Shown piece by piece: positions 5,456 to 49,433 of a stretch of 64,000 nucleotides of DNA. The position numbers and the translations under genes are program-made. The stretch covers positions 1,773,465 to 1,837,464 of the forward strand of contig NC_020134.1 of the NCBI RefSeq assembly GCF_000331995.1. Reading direction: 5' to 3'. This DNA is from Thermoclostridium stercorarium subsp. stercorarium DSM 8532 (GTDB lineage Bacteria > Bacillota > Clostridia > DSM-8532). The notes below the pieces were generated by a model. The model worked only from the letters and a program-made list of their open reading frames with translations. It was not told where the DNA came from and searched no databases. How positions within the stretch are numbered: position 1 is the first letter of the stretch; each line of letters opens with the position of its first letter.

Positions 5456-7666
5456 TTAGATACTTTTCAAATAAAAGATAATGGACGAAAAGTCATTTCC
5501 GTTTGCACATAATTCTTCATCCTTTAATACAATACCGACATTCATAAGTTCATCACCGTAATAATACCTTTCATTGTCGTTGTCAATAATATATTTCTTA
5601 TCTCTGTCAAGCCCTACAAGTTTAAGCCTTTTCCAGCCTTTGTTAGCATAATTCAGAGTCTTGTAATACGCTGCAATAGCTTCTGATTTATCTTCTGATA
5701 CAACTATCCAGGACGTTTCATTTCCGTCAAACGGGCTTAATATACGGTAAAATGTTCCTTTAAGAAAAAGTTCTCTGTGGAATTTATAAAAAGTAATCTG
5801 TTTTTTTATCTTTTCTTTTTCTTCTTCTGTTAATAAAGTCAAATCAAGTTCATAACCAAACACTCCGAAATAAGCTACATTGGCTCTTGTTTCAATAGGC
5901 GTAATTCTTCCTACTTGCTGATTGGGAACTTCTGAAACATGAGCTCCCATAGTACTTATTGGATAGAGCAGAGAAGTACCATACTGAATCTTCAGTCTCT
6001 CAATTGCATCAGTATTATCGCTTGTCCATACTTGCGGAGCATAATACAGTATTCCGGGATCAAACCGTGCCCCACCGCTTGAGCATGCTTCAAAAAGTAT
6101 ATATGGAAACCTCTCTGTCAATCTTGAAAATAAATTATATACTCCCAGAATATACCGGTGAAAAACCGTTCCTTGGCTGCCGGCTTCCGCCCCCAAAGAA
6201 TAACACTCAGTTATATACCTGTTCATATCCCATTTTACATAGGATATTTTTGCACTGCTCAGAACTTTTTCCATTACGGAATAAATATAATCAACCACTT
6301 CTTTTCTCGAGAAATCCAAAACGTACTGGTTACGTGAAGCTGATGTCCTTCTTCCCGGGGTCGCAATTATCCAATCAGGGTGTTTTCTGTATAAGTTGCT
6401 GTCCTTATTTACTGATTCCGGCTCAAACCAAAGCCCGAATTTCATGCCCATTGATTCAATTTTGTCAGCCAGGCCTTCAATACCATCGGGAAGTTTTTTC
6501 CTGTTAACAATATTCCAATCTCCCAGCCCTGCTTTATCGTTGTCTCGGTTTCCAAACCATCCGTCATCAAGCACAAACAGTTCGATTCCAAGTTCCTTTG
6601 CTATTTCTGCCATTCTTAAAAGCTTTTCCTCAGTAAAATTTGCGCCAGTAGCTTCCCAACTGTTTATAAGAACCGGTCTGGGTTTGTCACGCCATTGTCT
6701 GCTTATAAGATGTTTGCTGAACAGCTTATGGAATGTCTGACTCATCTTATTGAGCCCCTCGTCTGAATAAACAATTATTGCTTCAGGTGTCTGAAAAAAT
6801 TCTCCTTTTTCCAACGGCCACTCAAAAGTATCCGGATGAATACCCAGCATAACTCTTGTCATGTTGTGGGTATCTACCTCAACCTGTTCAAGATGGTTGC
6901 CGCTGTATATTAAGCTGAAACCATATACTTCGCCGCTGTTTTCATCCGTATTTGGTCTTTTTAGGGCAATAAACGGATTATGTTCCGCACTGCTAATACC
7001 GCGCATACTGTAAACCCCCTGTATGCCCTGCTGAAGTTTTCTCGTTTTAATATGCCGTTCCCGTGACCATGCGCCGGAAAGCTGGATCATCTCAAAATCG
7101 CTGTCAATAAAATCAATGCTTGCGCTCATTGCCCTTTCCAGCACAATCGTTTCTTCTCCTTTGTTTATGAACCTTGCGCTTCTGGCTATCGCAGAATAAT
7201 TGTTGAATATTGTATAGCTCAAAACCAGTTCTGTTTTAATAAGTTCATCATACAGCGTTATTTCAAGGGTATCTGCATCGGCTGGTTCTTCCACATAAGT
7301 CGCCGGAAGGCCTTCTAAGCCATTCTTGCCTGCAAAAATTTCATGTTTTTTATATTCAAAACAGGATATTCTGCTCCCATTTTTCTGCTTTATCTCAAAA
7401 GCAGGGCTTCTAAAATCAGTAGTCCCATATGACGGATATTCTTGCATGGTATGCTGAAGTGAAAAAGCCGGATCATCTTCAAAAACATAAGCCGATAAGG
7501 GTCTGGCTTTTTTCTGGAATAAATGTGAAAATGACTTTCTGTCTTTTATAACTTTGCCGAAATAAAGGTTTCCAAGCTGTTTATTAGGCAATATTTTAAT
7601 TATATAGCTGATGCTTTTATTATAAAGATGAAATTCACCAGATTCTTCATGAAAAATAATTGGCAT
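5456..7666 (-). CDS. Alpha-galactosidase, GH36 family
   Basis: A protein of about 736 residues with the three-part layout of GH36: an N-terminal beta domain, a central barrel and a C-terminal domain. The nucleophile motif 'YVKWDMNRYI' and the acid/base region 'FEACSSGGARFDPGILYY' are intact. Other conserved blocks are 'NSWEATGANFTEEKLL' and 'FVLDDGWFGNRDND'. The ATG at 7666 is chosen because AGGGGG lies six bases before it; an upstream ATG at 7684 lacks spacing. No signal peptide is seen, so it probably acts in the cytoplasm on raffinose- or melibiose-type oligosaccharides brought in by the adjacent ABC transporter, whose genes lie directly upstream on the same strand. Confidence 0.93.
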   Translation of the reverse strand: MPIIFHEESGEFHLYNKSISYIIKILPNKQLGNLYFGKVIKDRKSFSHLFQKKARPLSAYVFEDDPAFSLQHTMQEYPSYGTTDFRSPAFEIKQKNGSRISCFEYKKHEIFAGKNGLEGLPATYVEEPADADTLEITLYDELIKTELVLSYTIFNNYSAIARSARFINKGEETIVLERAMSASIDFIDSDFEMIQLSGAWSRERHIKTRKLQQGIQGVYSMRGISSAEHNPFIALKRPNTDENSGEVYGFSLIYSGNHLEQVEVDTHNMTRVMLGIHPDTFEWPLEKGEFFQTPEAIIVYSDEGLNKMSQTFHKLFSKHLISRQWRDKPRPVLINSWEATGANFTEEKLLRMAEIAKELGIELFVLDDGWFGNRDNDKAGLGDWNIVNRKKLPDGIEGLADKIESMGMKFGLWFEPESVNKDSNLYRKHPDWIIATPGRRTSASRNQYVLDFSRKEVVDYIYSVMEKVLSSAKISYVKWDMNRYITECYSLGAEAGSQGTVFHRYILGVYNLFSRLTERFPYILFEACSSGGARFDPGILYYAPQVWTSDNTDAIERLKIQYGTSLLYPISTMGAHVSEVPNQQVGRITPIETRANVAYFGVFGYELDLTLLTEEEKEKIKKQITFYKFHRELFLKGTFYRILSPFDGNETSWIVVSEDKSEAIAAYYKTLNYANKGWKRLKLVGLDRDKKYIIDNDNERYYYGDELMNVGIVLKDEELCANGNDFSSIIFYLKSI

Positions 7667-8544: not shown

Positions 8545-9447
8545 CTAGCCCATATAATTAACCCATCTTTTCTGCAGCTTAACTTGTATTACCGTAATAA
8601 CTGAAATTATCAGAAGCAACACCATCACAATGGCTGAACCATAACCCTTGTTCAAATACTTGAATGAATTATTGTAAAAGAGGTAAACCAAAGATACGGT
8701 ACTGTCATATGACGGTCTTGTCACATCAATCATCATGTAAACCACATCAAATACCTGCATGCATTGTATTACCGAAGTGGTAATAACAAAGAACAATGTC
8801 GGCGAAACCAGAGGTATTGTGATTTTAAAAAACTGAGTTATTGCGTTTGCACCATCTATGTTTGAAGCTTCATAATAAACTGTAGGAATATCCTGAAGTC
8901 CGGCAAGAATAAGTACCATATTATAACCCGTTGTACTCCATATACTGATAATTGCTATTGATATCAGGGCTACCTTGGGATCGTCTATCCAATTAACAGG
9001 GTTTAATCCTAATTGTTTCAAAACATAGTTAATAAGCCCGTAATGGTAATTATAAAGCCATCTCCAAACCATTGTAACTGCCGCAGGAGTTGCAATGACA
9101 GGCATGTAATAAATACTGCGGTATATGCCTCTTCCTTTTATATTTTTATTGAGCAACACCGCTATAACAGCAGCTAAAAAAACACTTACCGGAACAACAA
9201 ATAAAGTATACAGCAGAGTATTTCTCACTGCATACCATACCTGTGAGTCATTTATCAGTTTCTTGTAATTTTCTAATCCTATAAATATATTACCCCGACC
9301 GAAATCGCCGCTTTTAAAAAAACTTAAATAAAATGTCTGTATTGCCGGTATAATGTTAAGAATTATAAGTCCAATTACAGCCGGAGCTACCAGGAACCAA
9401 CCCCATAACCATTCATTTATCTTTGATTTGCTCTTTCCATCAATCAT
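8545..9447 (-). CDS. Carbohydrate ABC transporter permease (MalF type)
   Basis: About 300 residues with six membrane helices, opening with 'WLWGWFLVAPAVIGLIILNI' and carrying the permease EAA loop 'YYEASNIDGANAITQFFKIT'. This is the MalF-like partner of the next gene. The frame is open to a TTG at 9492, but that lies without a ribosome binding site; the ATG at 9447 follows GGGAAGGG and gives the usual N-terminus for the family. Expected to form the membrane channel for an oligosaccharide. Confidence 0.9.
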   Translation of the reverse strand: MIDGKSKSKINEWLWGWFLVAPAVIGLIILNIIPAIQTFYLSFFKSGDFGRGNIFIGLENYKKLINDSQVWYAVRNTLLYTLFVVPVSVFLAAVIAVLLNKNIKGRGIYRSIYYMPVIATPAAVTMVWRWLYNYHYGLINYVLKQLGLNPVNWIDDPKVALISIAIISIWSTTGYNMVLILAGLQDIPTVYYEASNIDGANAITQFFKITIPLVSPTLFFVITTSVIQCMQVFDVVYMMIDVTRPSYDSTVSLVYLFYNNSFKYLNKGYGSAIVMVLLLIISVITVIQVKLQKRWVNYMG

Positions 9448-9542
9448 TTTTTCAGCCCTTCCCGAAGCCATTTTGAATAACTGGTACGGCAACTTTGTTC
9501 AAGTTGCCGCACCAATGATATATAACTCCGTTTATTCAAAAC

Positions 9543-10865
9543 TTATCTTTCTTGCGCAAGGCTTTCGTTCATAACTGCTGCGGCATCCCTGCAGGCTTGT
9601 TCGACAGTTTTTTCGCCAGTGAAAGCACCTCTTAATTCTTCATAAACTTTATCTTCCCAAACAGCCGTTGTATTGGAGTACGGTCTTATTACCGCATAAT
9701 CCAGCATATCAATAAAGCATTTGATATTGAAGGTTTTGTTGGATTCAACCCAAGCGTCTGCTGTTCCCTTATAAGCTGAAATTGCGATTCCAAGTTCCGC
9801 CTGTCTGAGCTGGCCTTCTTCAGAAGCAAGATATTCTACCCATTTCCATGCTGCGTCCAATTTCTTGGTATTCGGTGCTATGGCATATCCGAGACCGTTA
9901 TAGATAGAGGCTCTTCCTCCATTTGGTGCTGCGGGGAGCACTGTTACATCAAAGTTTTTAGCCATATACTCGTTAGCGGCAAAACCTGAAAGATTCCATG
10001 AACCGAAGAAACCCATTGCGCAAAGTCCGTTCTGCATTGCCTCCGCCCGTTCTGCGTCACCGAATATTAGAGGGGATAATCCTTCTTTCACAAACCTTAT
10101 ATAAAATTCCATCGCTTCAATGGTCTTGGGGTCATCATATCCGGATTTTTTATCAGGAGTGATCACTGTTCCACCGTTCTGATAAATAAAGTTGTAGAAA
10201 CCTTCCTGGTTATGCAGCGGAGCAAGAAAACCATACTGGGATTTATCGGGTTTCGTCAGTTTCTTGGCTGCTTCATAAAGATCATCCCATGTCCAGTTCT
10301 CATCAGGATATTCCAGACCTGCTTCGTCAAACATTGTTTTGTTGTACCATAATCCAATGGTATCAAAATCCTTTGGTATACAATATTGCTTACCGTTATA
10401 ATTATAGAGGGAAACCAAGCCTTCAGGATAATTCTTCAGGTCTATCTTGTCACTGGAAGCAATCAAATCGTCCAGACTCTTTAACATTTCATTTGAAGCA
10501 TACCGGTAAAAATTGTTGGAATGCATCCAGAAGGTATCAGGCAGGGTACCTGCTGAAGCTGCCGCATCCAATGCTGTCCAGTAATCTGACCATCCGTTCA
10601 GCTGGATTTCAATCTTGATATTGGGATTTTTCTCGGTAAACTCATCTGCCATTTTCTCAAAACCTAATGCCTGGTTGCTGTCCCATAATGCATATGTAAC
10701 AGTAACAGGTTCAGCAGTCGATGTTGTCTTTTCACCTGAAATATTTTTCTGTGTTTTTGCAGGCTCTGTTGACTGCGACTTATCCACCGAAGTATTTCCG
10801 CAGCCTGCCAACATAGTCAATACAAAAATTAGTGACAGCATGGCAGAAAAAACCCTTCTTTTCAT
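9543..10865 (-). CDS. Sugar ABC transporter substrate-binding lipoprotein
   Basis: A lipoprotein signal peptide ends in LAGC (Cys about residue 22). The mature part is an extracellular solute-binding protein of the MalE/family 1 type: 'VTYALWDSNQALGFEKMADE', 'WTWDDLYEAAKKLT', 'YGLGYAIAPNTKK'-like region near residue 325. The ATG at 10865 lies 11 bases after AGGAGG; a TTG at 10874 is too close to it. It is first in the block SBP-permease-permease-GH36, so it probably binds alpha-galacto-oligosaccharides. The sugar is inferred from the neighbouring enzyme. Confidence 0.92.
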   Translation of the reverse strand: MKRRVFSAMLSLIFVLTMLAGCGNTSVDKSQSTEPAKTQKNISGEKTTSTAEPVTVTYALWDSNQALGFEKMADEFTEKNPNIKIEIQLNGWSDYWTALDAAASAGTLPDTFWMHSNNFYRYASNEMLKSLDDLIASSDKIDLKNYPEGLVSLYNYNGKQYCIPKDFDTIGLWYNKTMFDEAGLEYPDENWTWDDLYEAAKKLTKPDKSQYGFLAPLHNQEGFYNFIYQNGGTVITPDKKSGYDDPKTIEAMEFYIRFVKEGLSPLIFGDAERAEAMQNGLCAMGFFGSWNLSGFAANEYMAKNFDVTVLPAAPNGGRASIYNGLGYAIAPNTKKLDAAWKWVEYLASEEGQLRQAELGIAISAYKGTADAWVESNKTFNIKCFIDMLDYAVIRPYSNTTAVWEDKVYEELRGAFTGEKTVEQACRDAAAVMNESLAQER

Positions 10866-11176
10866 AACCCTCAAATCCTCCTTATTACGGTTTTTAAACC
10901 ATTCTCAGTCGTATGTTATAATAAATTTTTTACATGTAGAATGGAATTGTGTGTTTCCTGTATGGAAATATGTGATTTTACAATATTGGCATAAACAGTT
11001 CCATTATGGTTAAATTCAAAGTATGTACGTTCAGTAATTTACCCTACCCTGCAGAGAATTTACGTTATAGTCTTAAATACGTAGAAAAATGTGTAACAAA
11101 TGTCAACGCTGGAATATTTTTACCCAAAGGGGGTGCGGACAAAAACCTGGACTTAAAATAGAGCAGGAGCCCCCAT
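10866..11176. promoter_or_regulatory. Control region of the galactoside block
   Basis: About 310 bases upstream of the binding-protein gene. They hold an AT-rich stretch with TTATAAC-like sequence on the minus strand (a possible -10 near 10915-10922) and a small inverted repeat TTTCC-5-GGAAA at 10954-10968 that could be an operator, for instance for the AraC regulator. From about 11130 the sequence probably belongs to the end of the IS3 relic. No gene seen. Confidence 0.35.
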
Positions 11177-11513
11177 GTGTATTCATATGAGGACAGAATG
11201 AAAGCAGTAGAGTTGTACAAACGAGACTGCAGCTGCCGTTGCTGGGCAATAGGAACCAGCCCGGATGCAGAGATAGTCAATACGATGTTGGATGGAGCCA
11301 TAAGCAGTCTTTCAGATACAGAGCATCCAATCGTACACTCTGAGGGTAGCCACTACAGATGGCCTGGTTGGATTTCCAGGATGGAAGATGCAGGATTTAT
11401 CAGGTCAATGTCCAAAAAAGGGTGTACTGCAGATAATTCCGCTTGTGAAGGGTTCTTTGGGAGGCTTAAAAACGAAATGTTTTACTACCACTCATGGGAA
11501 GATTCAAAGTTAA
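11177..11513 (+). pseudogene. IS3-family (IS150-group) transposase relic
   Basis: The frame joins two distant parts of an IS3-family transposase. The first 13 codons (YSYEDRMKAVELY) match the start of the OrfA helix-turn-helix protein. They jump directly to the catalytic OrfB core: 'SPDAEIVNTMLDGAISSLSD', 'HPIVHSEGSHYRWPGWISRM', 'SMSKKGCTADNSACEGFFGR' and 'LKNEMFY'. The latter holds the second part of the DDE region. Several hundred internal bases are missing, and the C-terminus is lost after about 11510, where the frame runs into the end of the CRISPR array. It is therefore inactive and marks a past insertion at the old end of the array. Confidence 0.85.
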
Positions 11514-11544
11514 TTAGAATTTTTAAGCTTAATCCCACCAAAGA

Positions 11545-14500
11545 ATTTACACTCCAATATGGTTAGATTCAAAGATGTAACCCGGCTGCCTTAATAGCTT
11601 CTTCAGCTTATTTACATTCCAATATGGTTAGATTCAAAGTAAGGCCCGAGACCCACTCCCAAGGCCCATTAAGATTTACATTCCAATATGGTTAGATTCA
11701 AAGCCGGCGATGAAGAGGAAAAAATAAAGAATGATAATATTTACATTCCAATATGGTTAGATTCAAAGCTCGTAGGGAGCTTTTCAGATAAAGGCGGTAC
11801 AGGATTTACATTCCAATATGGTTAGATTCAAAGGAAATACCGCGCGATACTCTTCCCTAAAATGCAATTATTTACATTCCAATATGGTTAGATTCAAAGC
11901 CTATTCCCATGAAGCTGTTTTTTCACTTCTTCCGATTTACATTCCAATATGGTTAGATTCAAAGAGTTTCCCCCCCCTACCCCTTTCAAAATACTAAAAA
12001 ATTTACATTCCAATATGGTTAGATTCAAAGTTACTCTATTATTCCTTACATAATTAATATTATGTAGTGAATGTATGCTATACCATTTACATTCCAATAT
12101 GGTTAGATTCAAAGCTGAATTGCCGCATCTGCAATATGAGCTGACTTAAATTTACATTCCAATATGGTTAGATTCAAAGTTTTTTAAGTCTGAAATTAAA
12201 CTCCTGGGAGATGTAATTTACATTCCAATATGGTTAGATTCAAAGGTGGAACGGTTCTGGCCGATTTTTACAAAGATACTAAATTTACATTCCAATATGG
12301 TTAGATTCAAAGTATAGTATTCATCTCCATGCTCATACTTTAAATCAATTTACATTCCAATATGGTTAGATTCAAAGCCAACCTGTTTGGATGTTATAAA
12401 ATCTATCACCTACATTTACATTCCAATATGGTTAGATTCAAAGTCGTCAACCCATATCTCCATCCTCGTGCTGTCCAGATTTACATTCCAATATGGTTAG
12501 ATTCAAAGAGGAATTGAGGTTGAAGAAAAGAAAAAAAGAAGGAATTTACATTCCAATATGGTTAGATTCAAAGTATGCCTTTATACCGTGATCCGGGAAG
12601 ACAATGAGTATTTACATTCCAATATGGTTAGATTCAAAGAACGCAGGCCCCTTTGATTCATTCTGACCAGTTGAGCTCATTTACATTCCAATATGGTTAG
12701 ATTCAAAGGCTTTTCCAGCCTTGCTGACACCCTCTATTATATATTTACATTCCAATATGGTTAGATTCAAAGTTGTAGGGTGCATCTCAGATAAAGGCGG
12801 TACAGGATTTACATTCCAATATGGTTAGATTCAAAGGAAGAACGCAAAATGGTGTTTCGTTACGTACCCTAAATTTACATTCCAATATGGTTAGATTCAA
12901 AGTATTGCTATTCTATCCCCTAAATTAGCCACAAGAATATTTACATTCCAATATGGTTAGATTCAAAGGGTATCTTCCCAAACACAGCGTCAATTACCTC
13001 GGTAATTTACATTCCAATATGGTTAGATTCAAAGGACTGATGCAGGTAATATCCCTATGGATTTACCATATTTACATTCCAATATGGTTAGATTCAAAGA
13101 TTATAAGGGTATATGGGAAAGATGGGTCAAAGATAATTTACATTCCAATATGGTTAGATTCAAAGTGATCAGGTCTTTTTCTACCCTGAACAAAAATCTT
13201 GATTTACATTCCAATATGGTTAGATTCAAAGTATAAGTAAAGAAAACACATAATCATAATTAAAACATTTACATTCCAATATGGTTAGATTCAAAGGTTC
13301 CAGCCGAAATGGGCCTTAACATAGACGGTTAATTTACATTCCAATATGGTTAGATTCAAAGTCTTTTATGCCCTGCTTTTTATTTTTGCTGGAGTACAAT
13401 TTACATTCCAATATGGTTAGATTCAAAGGGTAAGAACCTACAATGAATACGACGAGGCCAGCGAAATTTACATTCCAATATGGTTAGATTCAAAGGCTGT
13501 TTTTGAGGAACGGGTTCTGAATCCTATTCCTGAATTTACATTCCAATATGGTTAGATTCAAAGTGAATCAAACGCCTTTGCATGGGGCGTTGCAGCTGTA
13601 TTTACATTCCAATATGGTTAGATTCAAAGGACTGGTGCTTTGTTACGTACCCTACACCCCTTCAATTTACATTCCAATATGGTTAGATTCAAAGGCTACT
13701 TCGAGGCGCAGGCGGAGGCCGAGCGCCAGGATTTACATTCCAATATGGTTAGATTCAAAGGTAGAAGGTGGCTTTGTTCATCAGCCATTTGGCGATTTAC
13801 ATTCCAATATGGTTAGATTCAAAGTGTGCTTGAGGCTTGCATCGAAAAGTACCAAAACAATTTACATTCCAATATGGTTAGATTCAAAGCTTGTCGGGTT
13901 CATATCGGCGTCAGCACTTTATATCATTTACATTCCAATATGGTTAGATTCAAAGGGATGACAGCGGTTTTCAATTTACCCGCATAAAAACAAGATTTAC
14001 ATTCCAATATGGTTAGATTCAAAGCCACTTGCCGTTTCCTCGCCATCGAAAAGAATCGAATTTACATTCCAATATGGTTAGATTCAAAGGCAGCTCTTTC
14101 TAACATAAAATGAGTTGCATTGTAATTTACATTCCAATATGGTTAGATTCAAAGGATTTGGTTGCATTCGTAACCATTTCATCAAAAAAAATTTACATTC
14201 CAATATGGTTAGATTCAAAGCAAGCGTTCGTATCATGACGAAATATGTTTCTATCATATTTACATTCCAATATGGTTAGATTCAAAGGGAGCAGGAGGCT
14301 CAAGACATCGACTGGCTGAGTGAATTTACATTCCAATATGGTTAGATTCAAAGCATTATGAACGATGCTGACTGGAATACTCACATTGTATTTACATTCC
14401 AATATGGTTAGATTCAAAGCCTGCGCTTGTTCGCCCGGTTTACTATCTGCAAAAATTTACATTCCAATATGGTTAGATTCAAAGTACTTTTTCTGCCTTT

Positions 14501-15671
14501 ACCCATCTTACATAATCTACATTTACATTCCAATATGGTTAGATTCAAAGGCAACCCTGCACTGCAGCTTGTGATAGCTAAAGCTGAATTTACATTCCAA
14601 TATGGTTAGATTCAAAGGCTTCAACTTTTTCTTGTTTTTTCTTTGCAACTTTTATTTACATTCCAATATGGTTAGATTCAAAGATGGAAAGCCTTAGCCG
14701 TACCGCGTAAGGAGTTTAATTTACATTCCAATATGGTTAGATTCAAAGCACCCAAACACACATCCGAGGTCAAATTTTTGAAAATTTACATTCCAATATG
14801 GTTAGATTCAAAGGTGAGCTGATATGCATTACAACCTTGCCGGTTTTATATTTACATTCCAATATGGTTAGATTCAAAGGAAGGAGGAAGGCATGACATG
14901 ACCAAACAGGAAGCATATTTACATTCCAATATGGTTAGATTCAAAGGCCGAGTTTCGCCACGAGTGCCTCATATTCGGCATATTTACATTCCAATATGGT
15001 TAGATTCAAAGAATAGCTCCAAACATAGATGTAATGTTTCATGATAGATTTACATTCCAATATGGTTAGATTCAAAGCAGTGCTGAGCGCTATACATACG
15101 ACAAACGAGGGCCATTTACATTCCAATATGGTTAGATTCAAAGGTTATCACCTTTTGAGGAACCGGTGGACTATGTAAAAATTTACATTCCAATATGGTT
15201 AGATTCAAAGTGTTTCCGGTGTCATGTATGCGCCGTGTTTTCTGAATTTACATTCCAATATGGTTAGATTCAAAGGCACCCGGTGGAACATTCCCGACTG
15301 GAAACATTTACATTTACATTCCAATATGGTTAGATTCAAAGTCATGGCTGGATGAAGAGGCACAGAAGGTCTGGAAGAATTTACATTCCAATATGGTTAG
15401 ATTCAAAGTCTAACCCTTATCGGTATTATATGGTCTACTTCTGATTTACATTCCAATATGGTTAGATTCAAAGGTTGTATTACGTTTTCCAAAAACTCTT
15501 TTAGAGAAAGATTTACATTCCAATATGGTTAGATTCAAAGTGGTCAAAATACTTTTGTCCTGTCACTTTCGCAATATTTACATTCCAATATGGTTAGATT
15601 CAAAGATTTTCGCGTGAATGCGTTTCCCAATAATTTTCTGAATTTACATTCCAATATGGTTAGATTCAAAG
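11545..15671 (-). CRISPR. CRISPR array, 63 repeats of 30 bp, 62 spacers (type I-B)
   Basis: I counted 63 copies of a 30-bp repeat, the first at 11545-11574 and the last at 15642-15671. Spacers are mostly 34-37 bp; two are 39 and one (12031-12084) is 54. All copies I read are identical except the leftmost, which has T to C at its eighth base. Orientation is inferred as minus: the changed copy lies at the left (old end), the leader and cas2 at the right, and the minus-strand repeat ends in ATGTAAAT, like the 5' handle of Clostridioides difficile I-B crRNAs. The apparent open frames inside the array are translations of the repeat and are not genes. Confidence 0.98.
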
Positions 15672-15958
15672 GCGATTAATTATAATACTTGAATTTCATA
15701 TCTTTTAAGTACAGTTTCTGTCTATGATATAAGGTTAAAAAAATATGTATTACATACAGCTATATAAATTTTTTAAAATTATTCATTTTTCAAAGTCCGA
15801 TACGTCTGTCGATCCCCTATATATTTTATGCTACTCATGATCGACAGATCAAGTCTGAAATTATTTCTTCGTCAAACTCAGAACTACGGTGGTATCCTCA
15901 CGAGTTTTGCTGTAGATGCCATTAAGACTTCTCATTTTCTCACGAGAAAAAACAAAAG
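15672..15958 (-). promoter_or_regulatory. CRISPR leader
   Basis: 287 AT-rich bases between the cas2 stop and the newest repeat, without a gene. On the minus strand TATAAT (15679-15684) lies seven bases before the first repeat, with a weak -35 (TTAAAA) 18 bases further up, so an array promoter here is possible but not firm. CTCACGAG occurs twice (15897-15904 and 15939-15946). An inverted repeat at 15805-15848 is listed separately. The function as leader is inferred from position. Confidence 0.75.
15805..15848. repeat. 10-bp inverted repeat inside the leader
   Basis: TCTGTCGATC at 15805-15814 and its exact complement at 15839-15848, separated by 24 AT-rich bases. It lies about 135-175 bases from the newest repeat. 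It could be a binding site used in spacer integration or a structured element after cas2; neither is shown by sequence. Confidence 0.7.
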
Positions 15959-16237
15959 TCATAAGAAATTTGAAGTTGCATTATCTTCTTTTCCCCAAAA
16001 CTCTTTATCCAGCCATTTCTCGTTCCTGGTTTTGAATACAATTAATGAATCTTTGTCTTTTCTCAAAAGTTTTTTTAAAGACATTTCCAATTTAAAAAGC
16101 TGAGATTCCGATAATTCACCCTCAAATACTGAATTTTGAACATGTACAAGGTATTTTTTACATTCTTTGAAAACTTTTCTTAAAACAGACGGACCTGTTT
16201 CATCAAGAACAATGTCATATACAAGTATAATATACAT
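15959..16237 (-). CDS. cas2: CRISPR-associated endonuclease Cas2
   Basis: 92 residues beginning MYIILVYDIVLDETGPSVLR, the Cas2 ferredoxin-like fold with the catalytic Asp in 'VYDI', and the 'HVQNSVFEGEL' strand typical of the family. The ATG at 16237 follows GGTGGTGAT; an upstream TTG at 16252 would start inside that box. It is the last cas gene, five bases after cas1, and is followed by the leader. With Cas1 and Cas4 it selects and integrates spacers. Confidence 0.95.
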   Translation of the reverse strand: MYIILVYDIVLDETGPSVLRKVFKECKKYLVHVQNSVFEGELSESQLFKLEMSLKKLLRKDKDSLIVFKTRNEKWLDKEFWGKEDNATSNFL

Positions 16238-16242
16238 TTTTA

Positions 16243-17235
16243 TCACCACCAAATTTTAAACGGTTCGTATACTTTTTCTTCCAACAAATGTTTAATGAGT
16301 TTATATACTTCAAGACGAATAAGTCGTAGGTACGATACCGAACGTTTCAGTTCCCTGTGCTCTATTGTCTGTTTTAACCGGATATCAAGTTCTGCAACAA
16401 TTGTCTTTATAGCTGATTCTTTAAGTTGAAGTAATTCAGTTTCCTTATAAAAACTATCCTCATTTATTTGATTCTTATTAAGAAGTGAGAAAATTAGTCT
16501 ATCTACGATAAGTGGTTTAAATATCTCTGATATATCGAGACTTAAAGAAAATCTTCCGGTACCTGGTTCATGTAAGTAGCTTATAGTAGGATTTAGCTGG
16601 GTATTGTAAATTTCACTAAGTGTTTTAGTATATAACATGGAATTTAGAAAAGAAATAAGAGTGTTAATCATATTATCAGGTGGCCTCTTTACACGCTTTT
16701 CAAACTCAACATCCTGATTAATGATTTCATTCCAAGAAGTATAGTACACTTTTCTTATATTTCCCTCTATTCCCATAAGAGATTCAACATTATCACTTAC
16801 ATTTATTTGATTTCTGTAATAATCTATCTCATCAATTATATTCGACAAATCTTTACCTCTGTTTTTATAGTACCTTAAATTACGGTAAATATTAGCTGAA
16901 GCGCCGTCAACAAATGCTTTGGCCAATACAATCCGTTTTTCAGGATTTATATAATGTTCAACTTGTTTAACTAATAACTTTCCTGATACAAGATATTCCC
17001 GTGGGTAAAATGTTCCTGAATAATAGCCGTAATAATTAAACCAATGAACGGCAATATGACATGACGCCAAAAAATTCATCAACGCTGAGTTAACATTTAT
17101 CTGACCAAAGAAATAAAGATCTCTAACCTGTTCAATGGGAATGGTTTTTCTTCCACCGTCTTCAAGATAAAATTCCAACGTGTTATCTTTTCGTTTAAGT
17201 TCTCCATTATTGAATATGTAATAGGATTGTTTCAA
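16243..17235 (-). CDS. cas1: CRISPR-associated integrase Cas1 (type I-B)
   Basis: 330 residues starting MKQSYYIFNNGELKRKDNTL, as in I-B Cas1 proteins. The metal-binding residues lie in 'SLMGIEGNIRKVYY' (Glu), 'YLHEPGTGRFSLSLD' (His) and the Asp/Glu pair of 'SLDISEIFKP'. The start is a TTG at 17235, eight bases after GGGGAGG; the frame is open to 17253 but those codons overlap the ribosome binding site. It lies between cas4 and cas2 in one operon and carries out spacer integration. Confidence 0.95.
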   Translation of the reverse strand: MKQSYYIFNNGELKRKDNTLEFYLEDGGRKTIPIEQVRDLYFFGQINVNSALMNFLASCHIAVHWFNYYGYYSGTFYPREYLVSGKLLVKQVEHYINPEKRIVLAKAFVDGASANIYRNLRYYKNRGKDLSNIIDEIDYYRNQINVSDNVESLMGIEGNIRKVYYTSWNEIINQDVEFEKRVKRPPDNMINTLISFLNSMLYTKTLSEIYNTQLNPTISYLHEPGTGRFSLSLDISEIFKPLIVDRLIFSLLNKNQINEDSFYKETELLQLKESAIKTIVAELDIRLKQTIEHRELKRSVSYLRLIRLEVYKLIKHLLEEKVYEPFKIWW

Positions 17236-23498: not shown

Positions 23499-24215
23499 TC
23501 ACAGTGCTATCATTCCGAAGCCACAACTACGTTTTGAACCTATTCCCTGTTTATAAAAATAATCCAGTAAAACTGGATCTCCTTCCAGCATAAATGTCCC
23601 AAGCGTAACTTCAATATACTGTCCGTAAAACTGCACTACTGTTTTTTGAGGTTTAACAGGAGTCATACGAAAATCTTCCAACAGATATGACGGTATGTCT
23701 TTCAAAATTTCAAGTTGATAACGCAATACTTTCATCAGTTCATTATTAAATTCAGGATGAACAACACTGTAATAAAAATCTTTATTTCCATTATTGTGAG
23801 AACGGACGACTAACGGCGAAATAAACTGAATGAGTATTTTTCTCTCTGTAATTATTTTTTCAGGTACAAGATCGATCTCTTTAAGCAAAATCGTATTATT
23901 GAACGGAATGTTAAACTCTTTCAGTCTCATCTTCAGAAATGAATTATACATGTGTATGCCAAGAATGGTATCACCGGTCGAAAACTGGACCTCCATTCGG
24001 TTGGATTCTAATTGTATAGCATCTGAATTAAAAATGGGCTTGTCCAGCCAAACAGAAAATGTATATTTTTTAGGTATCACGCCGTTTTCATAAAGATTTC
24101 TGTACAGGACTTGATCATACTGAGATATGGAGTATTTAAGGAAGGACAATATAAAAGGCCTGTAATCACATGGAATTATATTTTTTCTTAATTCAAAACT
24201 TAATTTTAATCGCAT
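23499..24215 (-). CDS. cas6: CRISPR RNA endonuclease Cas6
   Basis: 238 residues with two RAMP folds; the glycine-rich loop 'KQGIGSKRSCGFGMIAL' at the extreme C-terminus is diagnostic. AGGAGGTG sits six bases before the ATG. It is the first gene of the cas operon, behind a near-consensus promoter at 24268-24296. Cas6 cuts the array transcript within the repeats to leave an 8-base handle. A second, unrelated-looking Cas6 lies at 47212-47940. Confidence 0.94.
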   Translation of the reverse strand: MRLKLSFELRKNIIPCDYRPFILSFLKYSISQYDQVLYRNLYENGVIPKKYTFSVWLDKPIFNSDAIQLESNRMEVQFSTGDTILGIHMYNSFLKMRLKEFNIPFNNTILLKEIDLVPEKIITERKILIQFISPLVVRSHNNGNKDFYYSVVHPEFNNELMKVLRYQLEILKDIPSYLLEDFRMTPVKPQKTVVQFYGQYIEVTLGTFMLEGDPVLLDYFYKQGIGSKRSCGFGMIAL

Positions 24216-43925: not shown

Positions 43926-45170
43926 ATGAACAGAATTATAATGCATATTGATGTAAATAACGCTTATTTAAGCTGGGAAGCAGTATACCGTCTTCAAATG
44001 GGTGAAAAAACAGACCTGAGGGAAATACCGTCGGTTGTCGGCGGGGATGAGCAGAGCCGCCACGGCATTGTTCTTGCCAAAAGCAATCCTGCAAAGAAAT
44101 ATTCAATTCAAACCGGAGAGGCGCTGTACACCGCCAGAAAAAAATGCCCGAATCTTGTTGTGGTTCCGGTGCGGTACGAGCTTTACATGATGTGCCACAA
44201 TGCGATGACAAACATCCTGCACGATTTTTCGCCCAATGTACAGGTATACAGTATTGACGAGGCTTTCCTTGATTACACCGGTATGGAAAACATCCACGGC
44301 GACCCTGTGGAAGCGGCTTATAAGCTTAAAAACAGAATAAAAACCGAACTTGGTTTTACCGTTAATGTAGGTATTTCCAGCAACAAGCTGCTTGCCAAAA
44401 TGGCCAGTGAACTGAAAAAGCCCGATATGGTCAATACCCTTTTCCCTGACGAGATAAAAGAAAAAATGTGGCCGTTGCCAGTACGGGAGCTTTTCATGGT
44501 GGGTCCTGCCACCGCACCGAAGCTATACCGGCTCAATATATTTACAATCGGGGATTTGGCGCAGGCCAATCCTGAATTATTGCAATACCATCTCAAAAGC
44601 TGGGGAAAGTTAATCCGGGACTACGCCAACGGAATAGAAAACAGCCCTGTTTCAGCGGACGCCCGTCCGCCGATCAAAGGCATTGGAAACTCAACCACAA
44701 TTCCGTTTGATGTGGATTCGGCGGATGAAGCCAGAAAAGTACTGCTGTCCTTGTGCGAAATGGTGGGCATGAGGCTTCGTCAGGCGGGTTACTGTGCAAA
44801 ACTGGTCTCGGTATATTTAAGAAACACAAATTTAACCGGAAAATCCCACCAACGAAAGTTCGCCACAGCCACCGATGACACATATCAGATTTTTAACCGT
44901 GCGTCGCAGCTTATGGAAGAAATGTGGACGGGAGAAGCATTGCGCGGAATGGGTGTTCACGTTTCGGATCTGGTTCCGAACGACTTATTTCAGATTTCAA
45001 TGTTTGAGCCGCTGAATGAACGCAGAAGGCGTTTGGACAAATCCATTGACCAAATACGTATGAAATACGGCCCAAAATCGGTGATCAGATCTGTTTTTGT
45101 CAACTCAGGACTTGCTCCGATTACCGGAGGAGTTATTGAAGATTTTAAAATGATGTCATCCATTCTTTGA
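43926..45170 (+). CDS. dinB: DNA polymerase IV (Y family)
   Basis: 414 residues: 'MHIDVNNAYLSWEAVYRLQM' carries the first catalytic Asp, 'VQVYSIDEAFLDYTG' the SxDE catalytic pair, and 'NVGISSNKLLAKMASELKKP' the next palm motif. The rest contains the thumb and little-finger regions. A weak GGTGA site lies before the ATG. The LexA box just upstream fits a damage-induced translesion polymerase. A strong terminator follows. Confidence 0.95.
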   Translation: MNRIIMHIDVNNAYLSWEAVYRLQMGEKTDLREIPSVVGGDEQSRHGIVLAKSNPAKKYSIQTGEALYTARKKCPNLVVVPVRYELYMMCHNAMTNILHDFSPNVQVYSIDEAFLDYTGMENIHGDPVEAAYKLKNRIKTELGFTVNVGISSNKLLAKMASELKKPDMVNTLFPDEIKEKMWPLPVRELFMVGPATAPKLYRLNIFTIGDLAQANPELLQYHLKSWGKLIRDYANGIENSPVSADARPPIKGIGNSTTIPFDVDSADEARKVLLSLCEMVGMRLRQAGYCAKLVSVYLRNTNLTGKSHQRKFATATDDTYQIFNRASQLMEEMWTGEALRGMGVHVSDLVPNDLFQISMFEPLNERRRRLDKSIDQIRMKYGPKSVIRSVFVNSGLAPITGGVIEDFKMMSSIL

Positions 45171-45173
45171 GCC

Positions 45174-45213
45174 AAAGGTCAAAAACCCACCTTTCGGTGG
45201 GCCTTTGACCTTT
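45174..45213 (+). terminator. Terminator after dinB
   Basis: Two nested stems: CCCACC/GGTGGG (45186-45191 and 45196-45201) inside AAAGGTCAAA/TTTGACCTTT (45174-45183 and 45204-45213). The tail is T-poor on the plus strand beyond the stem. Confidence 0.75.
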
Positions 45214-45253
45214 AGTAAAAGCAGAAATTTATATTTAAAGTAAAAGCAGAAAT
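45214..45253. repeat. Short direct repeat after dinB
   Basis: AGTAAAAGCAGAAAT occurs at 45214-45228 and again at 45239-45253. The remainder of the gap up to 45418 is very AT-rich and holds nothing else that I recognise. Confidence 0.7.
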
Positions 45254-45418
45254 ATTCCTGTATAAAGCTTATATGTTACGCCGCGTGCACCATACACAGG
45301 TACACTTTGTTAAAATATTAACACTCTATCACCTATTATATTATCACATTGTTAAATTATTATCAATATTATTAACTTGGTTTTTTTAACAAAATTTATT
45401 CAATTTTTTTAGTAAAAT

Positions 45419-46774
45419 TTACTTTGTCCTCAACATATTAAACGGATATTCGTCGGGAATTTTCTCAATCTTCGGATTGTTAAACAGGCACTTCTTCAGT
45501 TCGTTAACGTGGTCAATTGCTTTTCGTATGTCCCTGTCCAGACTTTTATTTCCGGAATAACCCGCATGGGCTATTGTGTTCCTTATTCCGTTAATAATCT
45601 TATATTCCAGGCTTATTTTGCAGTACTCCGGATTTTCTTTCAGATACTTTGTTATCAGGTACTTTATTTTCTTTCTGTCATTCTCATCCCAATTGACTGT
45701 TTCGCCTCTGTCCTGATAAAGTTCAAGAAGCCTTGTTCTTATTGATTCGGCCAGACAGATGTATCCCTGGGCATACCGTTTGTTTTCAAAATACCATTCA
45801 GCCAGAGCAAACTGAAGTTCTCCGTTGGTTTTTATTCCTTTAAACCGTTTTGCGAAATCGGACAAATACGGGAACATATGCCTTATCACCGGCTCGGCAT
45901 GTGGACTATTCTCCAGCAGCCGGTTTAAAGCCTTGATATTTTCTCTGAAATCGTCAATATAATTAATATTGACAATTTCCGATATTTTCCTTATATTCTC
46001 CGATAAATCCCTGTTATGAATCAAATCAGCCAGCAGGTATCCGTTCCCGAAATTTATAAAATTATATGCAGCCCTTGCCCACAAAGTCATGTTAAAATAC
46101 GGGCTTAAATCGACAATCGGGGCATATTCCAGTTCTCCTTTTATGTCCAGCATCCCGTAATACAATCCCGACAGTTTAAACGCTTTCTTAAATTTCAGTA
46201 TGCCAATTAAATCCAGCGTTATATAGTTAAACAAAGCGATGGACCTGAAAGCATGGGTTATGTCGAGATAAACCTCATCATCCTCTTCCAGCATATCACT
46301 GATTCGCAGCAAGGTATTGAAGTTGTTCCAGAGTTCTGTTTCGTTCAGGCCGTATTCTATGACGAAACATTTTGAACCGCCGGTTGCGGACTTTCTTATG
46401 CTCTTCAGGTAAAAATCAATTGTCAGATTAAGCTTTCCCAAATCTTCCTCGTTTATCCTGTCTTTATTGCCCTCTGCGTCTTTGACGTTAAAACTTTTAG
46501 CCTTGTCCGCCAGTAAATTTTTATATTTTCTGTCTTCCTGCAGGTTTGCAGCTTCTGTGTAATAGCGGTAAACTTCCTCCCACATCGATTTTGGCGTACC
46601 CACCAGATAAAGCCTGTCCACTTTTAAATGTTCACATAATGCCGCAGCAACAAATGAAGTTTTATATTCCTTGCCCGTACCGGAAAACCTGTAAACCGCA
46701 GGCATGTATTTTCTTTCATTTTCCTCCTGCCGGCTTATTCCCGTTCCCAACGCCGAAATCAGAATTTTGGCCAT
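45419..46774 (-). CDS. csx1: CARF-HEPN CRISPR ribonuclease (Csx1/TM1812, DxTHG type)
   Basis: 451 residues. The N-terminal CARF domain opens 'MAKILISALGTGISRQEENE'; the DxTHG-type motif is 'LDITHAFRSIALFNY' (Asp171-His174). The C-terminal HEPN domain has the R-x4-H motif RNTIAH (Arg398, His403). Such proteins are RNases switched on by cyclic oligoadenylate made by Cas10 of type III systems. The ATG at 46774 follows GGGAGTG; the frame open to 46804 is not needed. No cas10, csm or cmr gene lies in the window, so the messenger must come from elsewhere or the gene is a leftover. A cas6 gene lies upstream on the same strand. Confidence 0.88.
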   Translation of the reverse strand: MAKILISALGTGISRQEENERKYMPAVYRFSGTGKEYKTSFVAAALCEHLKVDRLYLVGTPKSMWEEVYRYYTEAANLQEDRKYKNLLADKAKSFNVKDAEGNKDRINEEDLGKLNLTIDFYLKSIRKSATGGSKCFVIEYGLNETELWNNFNTLLRISDMLEEDDEVYLDITHAFRSIALFNYITLDLIGILKFKKAFKLSGLYYGMLDIKGELEYAPIVDLSPYFNMTLWARAAYNFINFGNGYLLADLIHNRDLSENIRKISEIVNINYIDDFRENIKALNRLLENSPHAEPVIRHMFPYLSDFAKRFKGIKTNGELQFALAEWYFENKRYAQGYICLAESIRTRLLELYQDRGETVNWDENDRKKIKYLITKYLKENPEYCKISLEYKIINGIRNTIAHAGYSGNKSLDRDIRKAIDHVNELKKCLFNNPKIEKIPDEYPFNMLRTK

Positions 46775-47147
46775 GAAAAACACTCCCTCTCCTGACTGAA
46801 ACAAAGTAATGCAAAAATAACAGGTACAGAAGATGAAATAAAACCGGAAACAGCAGTTTTATTTATCCCTCTTATCGGTTTCGGCCTTCAGTCTGTTATG
46901 TTATTTAAACATATTCGGGATTAAAAAGATTTCGTTTTTATGGCGTATTCTGTAAACATGCTTAATGCCTTATCCCAAGGCTTTTCAACCAGGTCTTTAC
47001 AAGTTATGTTTTGAGCGTTTTTCGGAGGATGAACAGCAAAATCCCCTGAAAGTTTTCCGCTTGCCGGAAACCGACGAAAATTTAAAGAGAATTATGAAAT
47101 ATAAAAGCCTATTCATATTGGGCAAACCAGTTTAATACCATCGGGAT
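46775..47147. other. Gap between csx1 and the orphan cas6
   Basis: About 370 bases. A 56-codon plus-strand frame (46965-47135, MPYPKAFQPGLYKLC...) lacks a ribosome binding site and matches nothing I know. On the minus strand the stretch just after the repeat-like site can be read as a short zinc-ribbon-like peptide (TLKELKYPDGIKLVCPI), possibly a transposase remnant. Probably decayed sequence from a former larger locus. Confidence 0.35.
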
Positions 47148-47177
47148 ATTTCAATTCCTTCAAGGTATGTTTATATC
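47148..47177 (-). repeat. Single CRISPR-repeat-like sequence between cas6 and csx1
   Basis: On the minus strand 30 bases end in ACCTTGAAGGAATTGAAAT, resembling the GGAATTGAAAC-ending repeats common in thermophilic Clostridia (I recall about 21 of 30 matching positions with one such repeat). It differs from the array repeat of this window. It is also part of a possible short coding remnant and is bounded by a GGGATAT/ATATCCC inverted repeat, so chance cannot be excluded. Confidence 0.35.
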
Positions 47178-47211
47178 CCCGTGTTTAACCTTTCCTTTCA
47201 CAACTAAGTAA

Positions 47212-47940
47212 CTATTCCGCCAGTTTCACACAGCCAAACCCCTGGCTGTTTTTGCCGCCCAGTCCCGCGTCCACAGCCATCTGGAGAAGTTCGCGAGGCC
47301 CTTCAACACTCAGCCTGCATGTATACCCCTTTACAATGTAGCCCTTGTATTTTACTATATGCAGCCTTGGCTGGGTTATCGGACTGAACCATACCTTTTC
47401 TTCAGGCGGTTGCATTCCTGTGTACGCCCTGTATTTTTTCCGAAGATTTTCTTCAACGATCCTGTTAAAATCTTCTTCACCGGGCTGAAAAAAGCATGTA
47501 TACTTTCTCTGATCGGGCCTTAACAAAGTACTGTATGCCGTTATCGGAGACAGCGTTTTCAGCACTATTTTGTTATCAAGTACGTCCTGCCGGCTTATTT
47601 CAATGCTTTCAATCTCAAGAAGGTTTTTGCCCAGCTTCGCTTCCTTTTTTAAAACCGTGTTCGCAAAAGATTCACAGAAATATTCGTCGGGCGACGATAC
47701 TTCAAGTTTTATCGGGGGTTTGAATGTAATAGTGCCGTTCGCACTGTCTATATTTGACTTTCCCAAAATATTCGAAAAACAGAATAATTTAAACTTCCTT
47801 CCTTCACCATAGCCTTTGCTGTGCAAAAATTCCGCCAGTTCCCTGTCTATCATGTTATAAATAAAGCCCTGCACAATATGGTTGTAATGAACGGGCAAAA
47901 CAATGTCATTTGCCGCATTCAGCCGTATACATATATGCAT
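47212..47940 (-). CDS. cas6: Second CRISPR RNA endonuclease Cas6, isolated
   Basis: 242 residues beginning 'MHICIRLNAANDIVLPVHYN' and ending with the glycine-rich Cas6 loop 'DAGLGGKNSQGFGCVKLAE'. The ATG at 47940 follows GGGGAG at seven bases and gives the usual Cas6 N-terminus; a TTG at 47997 is upstream without support. It is not closely similar to the operon Cas6 at 23499-24215 beyond the RAMP fold. Its only CRISPR-related neighbour is the csx1-type gene downstream. It may process the crRNAs of another array, perhaps one for a type III system elsewhere. Confidence 0.88.
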   Translation of the reverse strand: MHICIRLNAANDIVLPVHYNHIVQGFIYNMIDRELAEFLHSKGYGEGRKFKLFCFSNILGKSNIDSANGTITFKPPIKLEVSSPDEYFCESFANTVLKKEAKLGKNLLEIESIEISRQDVLDNKIVLKTLSPITAYSTLLRPDQRKYTCFFQPGEEDFNRIVEENLRKKYRAYTGMQPPEEKVWFSPITQPRLHIVKYKGYIVKGYTCRLSVEGPRELLQMAVDAGLGGKNSQGFGCVKLAE

Positions 47941-48008: not shown

Positions 48009-49433
48009 TTACGGTTCAAAATTTTCAAATACATTCATATTAATTTCGTTACTTGCCGTATTGTCATCAACCCATTCTGCTTCCTTCTCTTTTATTTTTC
48101 TAAAAAAACGCACTGCAAACGGAATTGCGGTGAGCATGCTTAACGTATCCGAAATACTTTGCGTAATTTGTATTCCAAACAGCCCCAAAAGGGATGACAG
48201 AATAAAAATTAACGGGATAAAATACAGGCCCTGCCTTGTCAGTGCAAGAAACGTCGCTTCTTTATTCTGTGCAAGGGACTGAAGAAGCATGTTCGTACTT
48301 ACCGTCACAGACATTAACGGAAGAACGGCCGCCTGAACCCTCAGAAGAAATGAGCCAATATTTATTACATCAGGATCATCGGGACGGAAAACCGCCAAAA
48401 TGTTCGGCGCAAAAATAAAGCAAATAACCGCAGCCACACTCATCATTGCGCAGCCGATTAGAAGCGTTACCTTATAAGCAGAGCGTACACGTCTGTAATT
48501 CCGGGCACCGTAATTGTATCCTGCGACAGGCTGAAATCCCTGACCTACGCCGAGCATTATCGCCATTATTATGAATGACACTTTTCCGACAATGGAAAAA
48601 GCTGCAACTGCAGCATCTCCGTAAATTTTCACCCTGTTGTTAAGCAGCGACGAAGAAATGCTTGCCAGACCCTGACGGAAAAAAGACGGCGCGCCTATAC
48701 GGATAATAACGGAATAAACGCCAAATCCCCCGGATATTTTCGCAAGGCTTATTTTCAGAACGCTGTGCCTGCTCTGAACAAATACCAGCAGTAATATCAG
48801 GCTTACAGTCTGACTGAGAATTGTAGCTATCGCAGCTCCCGCTATTCCCATATTGAAAGTAAAAATAAATACCGGATCAAGAAAAATATTCAATATTCCG
48901 CCTGTTGAGATGCCAATCATCGAAAAAGCCGTCTTCCCCTGGCAACGCAGCAAATGATTGAATACAAAAGACGCACACATTATCGGAAAGCCAAGAAGTA
49001 TATAGTTTGCGTAAACTTCCGCATACGGAAGGATTGTTTCGGTAGCTCCGACAAAACTCAGTATCGGTGCCAGAAAAAGTTTGCATAAAACCCCCAGGAC
49101 AATACCGCCCAAAACCGACGCAAAAACCGCCGAAGACGCTACTTTGTCCGCTTCTTCGGTATTACCTTCCCCAAGATATATTGAAATTCTGCTGCCGGCA
49201 CCGCTTCCAATCATAAAACCTACCGCCTGAAGAATTGCGGTAAGGGGAAATACCACTCCGACCGCACCGCTTGCACTTGTTCCCAGCTGAGACACAAAAA
49301 AAGTATCCGCAGTATTGTAAATTGAAGATACCAGCATGCTGACAATGGTCGGCGACGACATCCTCAATATAAGTTTTGTCATCGGAGTTTTCGTCATCAA
49401 ATCATGCTGCTTCTGATTTCTTACCGTATTCAT
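48009..49433 (-). CDS. MATE family efflux transporter
   Basis: 474 residues with about twelve membrane helices in two halves. 'PTIVSMLVSSIYNTADTFFV' and 'GTSASGAVGVVFPLTAILQA' are typical of the first half, and 'FQPVAGYNYGARNYRRVRSA' of the second. It should export cationic compounds or drugs using a Na+ or H+ gradient. It precedes the isolated cas6 by 68 bases on the same strand. The substrate is unknown. Confidence 0.92.
   Translation of the reverse strand: MNTVRNQKQHDLMTKTPMTKLILRMSSPTIVSMLVSSIYNTADTFFVSQLGTSASGAVGVVFPLTAILQAVGFMIGSGAGSRISIYLGEGNTEEADKVASSAVFASVLGGIVLGVLCKLFLAPILSFVGATETILPYAEVYANYILLGFPIMCASFVFNHLLRCQGKTAFSMIGISTGGILNIFLDPVFIFTFNMGIAGAAIATILSQTVSLILLLVFVQSRHSVLKISLAKISGGFGVYSVIIRIGAPSFFRQGLASISSSLLNNRVKIYGDAAVAAFSIVGKVSFIIMAIMLGVGQGFQPVAGYNYGARNYRRVRSAYKVTLLIGCAMMSVAAVICFIFAPNILAVFRPDDPDVINIGSFLLRVQAAVLPLMSVTVSTNMLLQSLAQNKEATFLALTRQGLYFIPLIFILSSLLGLFGIQITQSISDTLSMLTAIPFAVRFFRKIKEKEAEWVDDNTASNEINMNVFENFEP

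Follow-up and report, generated by a model that had tools for sequence, protein, structure and literature searches.

Intact csx1 and cas6 genes at a decayed CRISPR locus of Thermoclostridium stercorarium, likely trans partners of a remote type III-D system

We begin with the described systems that come closest to the locus considered here. Members of the Csx1 family bind or use cyclic tetra-adenylate (cA4) (PMC11229360), and Csx20 is a ring nuclease that degrades this messenger (PMC12409355). Two cA4 effectors are often seen serving one locus, and effectors that respond to different messengers are found together only very rarely (PMC11229360). Two surveys of type III effectors have limited their search to 4 kb or 6 kb around the locus (PMC11229360, PMC12409355). 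It has also been documented that crRNAs of type I, made by a type I Cas6, can be used by a type III complex unrelated to them (PMC5576922). The genes that we compare with these systems, a csx1 and a cas6, lie in a 64-kb stretch of the T. stercorarium chromosome (the whole stretch is called the window here), at a site where the features of a type III locus are absent: there is no adjacent cas10 and no adjacent array, only one degenerate repeat.

The csx1 gene (window 45419 to 46774, minus strand) is assigned by profiles and motifs to the CARF-HEPN ribonucleases of the TM1812/TIGR02221 family and encodes 451 amino acids. In profile searches it scores 151.6 bits against TIGR02221 (cas_TM1812; cut-off 76.25), and it matches the PADLOC profile CARF2--CARF_HEPN (PDLC01826) over its full length with 484.6 bits (residues 11 to 441 of the longer open frame). 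The CARF motif DITH (DxTH) at residue 171 and the HEPN motif RNTIAH (R-x4-H, where the family test is R-x4-6-H) at residue 398 are both intact and are conserved across an alignment of four proteins. As the alignment of the three closest homologues begins at MAKILIS (MAK[IV]LIS), the start of the gene is likely the ATG at 46774, which is preceded by a ribosome-binding-like AGGAGAGGGAG. The Csx1 sequence has no sequence match in the PDB. A structure model made from four sequences, poor in quality (pLDDT 67.7), has Csx1 and Csm6 enzymes as its top PDB matches, the best being Marinitoga Csx1-Crn2 with an E-value of 7e-10 and a TM-score of just 0.3. A scan of 84,980 species genomes gives three relatives of the gene in other Clostridia, with identities of 56-57%. 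All three follow csm genes and are themselves followed by csx20; two of these loci have a complete cas10, and in the third the contig ends within the gene.

The cas6 gene (window 47212 to 47940, minus strand, with its start ATG at 47940) is intact, encodes a Cas6b-like protein of 242 amino acids according to the profiles, and is also preceded by a ribosome-binding-like site. The protein scores 135.2 bits against TIGR01877 in the profile search (cut-off 58.65) and 275 bits against the PADLOC Cas6b profile, and its C-terminal glycine-rich loop, GLGGKNSQGFG, is intact. With the Cas6 of the operon in the window (23499 to 24215) it shares 23% identity over 156 amino acids. The preliminary description of this DNA had claimed a CARF protein with DxTH and intact R-x4-H motifs, and a second Cas6 different from that of the operon; both claims are borne out. 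In relatives, the clade of this Cas6 heads Csh-type I-B operons or adjoins arrays whose repeats end in TACCTAT[AG]AGGAATTGAAAC (L034, L035, L038 and L057), the link between the Cas6 and these repeats being one of co-occurrence. A homologue with 38% identity in G363, another genome of the class, is found within an I-B operon, on the fragment that adjoins an array of the same repeat family. An attempt at dN/dS for the window cas6 against the nearest genomes met saturated synonymous sites. In a second genus of the family, three species (L030, L031 and L032) have solitary cas6 genes of this clade that are intact and give a dN/dS of 0.06-0.10; a lone Cas6 can therefore be kept by selection. A copper ATPase gene lies nearby in all three of these species, and there are no neighbouring cas genes in the stretches read.

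We turn our attention to the site that holds the two genes, which is flanked on the left by polIV (43926 to 45170, plus strand) and on the right by the gene of a MATE transporter (48009 to 49433, minus strand). Between cas6 and csx1 there is a single degenerate CRISPR repeat, GATATAAACATACCTTGAAGGAATTGAAAT (47148 to 47177, minus strand), recognized by alignment with the arrays of relatives and missed in the preliminary description. Allowing up to three mismatches, its 20-base core has one match in the window, compared with an expectation of 0.02 from shuffles, and a search of the whole genome with the 27-base form at the same tolerance gives no second copy. Two species of the same genus (G024 and G026) have a truncated cas6 at the same place, in a MATE-HK-RR-plsX-pepF neighbourhood, with 72-74% identity to the window cas6 over the remaining part. 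The G024 contig reads MATE-cas6'-cas8b-cas7-cas5-cas3'-IS-array, where the array repeat is GTTTTGAGCCTACCTATAAGGAATTGAAAC, the cas3 is cut short beside the insertion element, and the subtype I-B is the PADLOC assignment of a close homologue. The polIV contig of G024 starts inside the same array, the two contig ends overlapping by 136 identical bases, and in G026 the polIV contig likewise begins with array repeats. Since both species have a truncated cas6 at the MATE gene and an array at polIV, the interval between polIV and MATE is the ancestral CRISPR site. It is well shown that the site in the window is a decayed CRISPR locus, of which cas6 and csx1, both intact, and one degenerate repeat are all that is left. 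A short open stretch on the opposite strand (46990 to 47135, plus strand, ending in ...CFERFSEDEQQNPLKVFRLPETDENLKRIMKYKSLFILGKPV*), between csx1 and the relic repeat, has no match among the fetched loci and is possibly a gene fragment.

The next question is whether the genome has a Cas10 at all. The genome consists of a single contig (2,974,379 bases), and the Cas10 profile has exactly one match in it, at 348329 to 348715, about 1.47 Mb from the window csx1 (348 kb against 1.82 Mb). The match belongs to a complete type III-D operon (L002 and L012) that contains cas6, cas10 with GGDD, four Cas7-like genes, Csx10/Cas5, two Cas11-like genes and csx1-csx20, with the Cas5 and Cas11 subunits assigned to III-D by PADLOC. 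The effector of this operon is a CARF-HEPN protein of 617 amino acids with a fused Csx20 domain, and its Cas6 is very different from that of the window. The puzzle of an effector with no Cas10 in sight thus dissolves when the search covers the whole genome: the statement is true of the 64-kb window and false of the genome, where Cas10 exists far off. The same operon also rules out that we have here an orphan CARF effector whose genome lacks Cas10. No array turns up when repeats are sought in about 20 kb upstream of the operon and 10 kb downstream. G363 has a homologous III-D operon (53-73% identical), likewise without an array in its surroundings, of which roughly 30 kb were read, and has many arrays of the TACCTAT[AG]AGGAATTGAAAC family in its genome. 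The preliminary description had held that the csx1 would be an ordinary detached accessory if, elsewhere, a complete type III operon adjoined a matching array; the operon is indeed complete, no array adjoins it, and arrays of the matching family lie elsewhere.

These arrays were sought in the genome by repeat pattern, so that arrays with other repeat types could have escaped. They are found at four places, 206, 785, 789 and 2320-2322 kb, with the repeat GTTT[AG]AAGTTTACCTAT[AG]AGGAATTGAAAC, the family that accompanies the window Cas6 in relatives, and there are no cas genes in the 20-kb stretch read at each. Arrays with a repeat other than that of the window array, for which the preliminary description had suggested a search, are therefore present. 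The I-B array of the window and a small array at 1503 kb have GGAATGTAAAT-type repeats. In the orphan array at 206 kb (positions 8566 to 13909 of the stretch at genome 197000 to 216900), the repeats end in GAAAG up to about the 15th and in GAAAC thereafter; the span of the array contains a transposase gene (12414 to 13484), and a further degenerate repeat lies at 7636. The array at 1503 kb (9384 to 9611 of genome 1494000 to 1513900) is a cas-less array of four repeats, ATTTACATTCCATTATGGTTAGATTAAAAG, related to the I-B array of the window, which has a truncated transposase-like frame just ahead of it (window 11177 to 11566, plus strand). Another decaying CRISPR locus (10534 to 17097 of genome 2060000 to 2079900) comprises a further I-B operon in which cas6 is shortened (132 amino acids), with cas3 and a remnant array of about five diverging repeats, and with no cas4, cas1 or cas2 in the part read.

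Combining the site, the operon and the arrays, we consider it likely that the two genes left at this relic locus work in trans. Csx1 would be a second cA4 effector of the remote III-D system and Cas6 the processing enzyme of the orphan arrays, functions that we infer for the two proteins as follows. The window Cas6, for which the GTTTRAAGTTTACCTATRAGGAATTGAAAC repeat is the candidate substrate, would cut the transcripts of the orphan arrays into crRNAs; of the repeats GTTTGAAGTTTACCTATAAGGAATTGAAAC and CTTTGAATCTAACCATATTGGAATGTAAAT, the first is the predicted substrate, and the crRNAs would carry the AUUGAAAC tag. The III-D complex would load these crRNAs, and in response to target RNA its Cas10 would make cyclic tetra-adenylate, which would bind the CARF dimer of the detached Csx1 and also the CARF-HEPN-Csx20 protein of the operon. 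The HEPN domain would then degrade RNA, and the operon effector, through its Csx20 domain, would end the signalling to both effectors. That cA4 is the ligand of the window Csx1 is suggested by its family only. As Csx20 is part of the operon effector and csx20 adjoins the relatives of the detached Csx1, the two effectors probably read the same messenger. From this probably shared signal, together with the documented use of type I crRNAs by a type III complex, it follows that the pair most likely acts in trans with the III-D system. For the processing step, the operon's own Cas6 may serve the orphan arrays instead. Among the options of the preliminary description, a remote arm of a type III locus elsewhere becomes the best-supported functional reading, with the complete III-D operon and its intact GGDD Cas10 1.47 Mb away as that locus.

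A different reading would have both genes intact by chance, unexpressed or unused, with all the work left to the III-D system and the Cas6 and Csx1 of its operon. Decay of the site is evident in the sister species, where the cas6 is truncated (G024 and G026) and the cas3 is cut short beside an insertion element (G024), and the III-D operon is already equipped with a cas6 and a CARF-HEPN effector. We nevertheless regard a pure relic as unlikely, given that both frames in the window are complete, with conserved motifs and ribosome-binding-like sites, whereas the sister copies of cas6 are broken, and that the solitary cas6 of the same clade in another genus is under strong purifying selection (dN/dS 0.06-0.10). 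It is also conceivable that the Csx1 responds to some signal different from cyclic oligoadenylate and acts independently of any type III system, an option that the preliminary description had raised and for which we find no support. The distance of csx1 from cas10 is the one observation in its favour; the full-length match to the CARF2 CARF-HEPN family, the relatives encoded in csm operons beside csx20, and the Cas10 with intact GGDD in the same genome make it highly improbable.

The origin of csx1 is a separate matter. It has no close orthologue within the family, where the weak matches are, on full comparison, nearer to the Csx1 of the III-D operon. At one fetched locus (L043) a cas10-csm (III-A) operon comes directly after an array, and the strand and order of the genes in the window fit a lost cas6-...-array-cas10-csm-csx1 arrangement. 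The gene thus appears to derive from a type III-A module that formerly lay behind the array. This origin is indirect, because no csm remnant is found in the gap between cas6 and csx1: a six-frame comparison of the gap (46775 to 47215) with all open reading frames of the fetched loci, in search of Csm, Cas8 or Cas7 remnants, gives only chance matches of 5-21 residues, as does the same comparison after csx1 (45171 to 45430) for a Csx20 remnant. The suggestion of the preliminary description that the pair is the residue of a lost type III locus holds as far as a residue is concerned; the sister species show type I-B at this place, and a type III-A part would come in only through the relatives of csx1. 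Alternatively, horizontal transfer brought in csx1 by itself, as an additional effector for the III-D system, and the gene was inserted at the former I-B site without ever having been part of the locus. No csx1 of comparable similarity is found in other genomes of the family, the polIV side of the sister I-B loci is without csx1, and the nearest relatives belong to other Clostridia, all of which would agree with such an acquisition. It is made somewhat doubtful by the match in strand and order to the arrangement above, with the array ahead of the III-A operon in L043, and by the position of csx1 directly adjoining the relic repeat. As it concerns origin, this alternative is compatible with a role in trans.

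If the pair acts in trans, surveys limited to the vicinity of cas10 miss real type III effectors, and the decay of one CRISPR type can, as the site would suggest, leave parts for another; a mere relic would be ordinary erosion of a CRISPR locus. Extending the proposed trans role, we tentatively picture, as a possibility that falls short of even chances, one III-D system scattered over the chromosome, its operon lying array-less at 348 kb and its arrays, devoid of cas genes, at 206, 785-789 and 2320 kb, with a trans Cas6 and a second cA4 ribonuclease kept at the dead I-B site. In that case the decay of type I would have left exactly the parts usable by type III.

Each part of the proposed trans role has precedent. 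The window csx1 resembles the Csx1/TM1812 (TIGR02221) effectors of type III systems in domain order, in its DxTH and R-x4-H motifs, in its full-length match and in having relatives in cas10-csm operons; it differs from them in lying 1.47 Mb away from the genome's single Cas10 and in being without a csx20 partner. Cas6 proteins that are 45-70% identical to that of the window lead cas8b-cas7-cas5-cas3 in Csh-type I-B operons or adjoin GGAATTGAAAC arrays, whereas the window Cas6 stands alone, its operon and array gone. In Marinomonas mediterranea, a type III system uses type I crRNAs and a Cas6 in trans (PMC5576922). Compared with that system, the donor type I operon is gone here, the subtype is III-D instead of III-B and the cross-use is one that we infer, but the two share an array-less type III operon, separate arrays and a type I Cas6.
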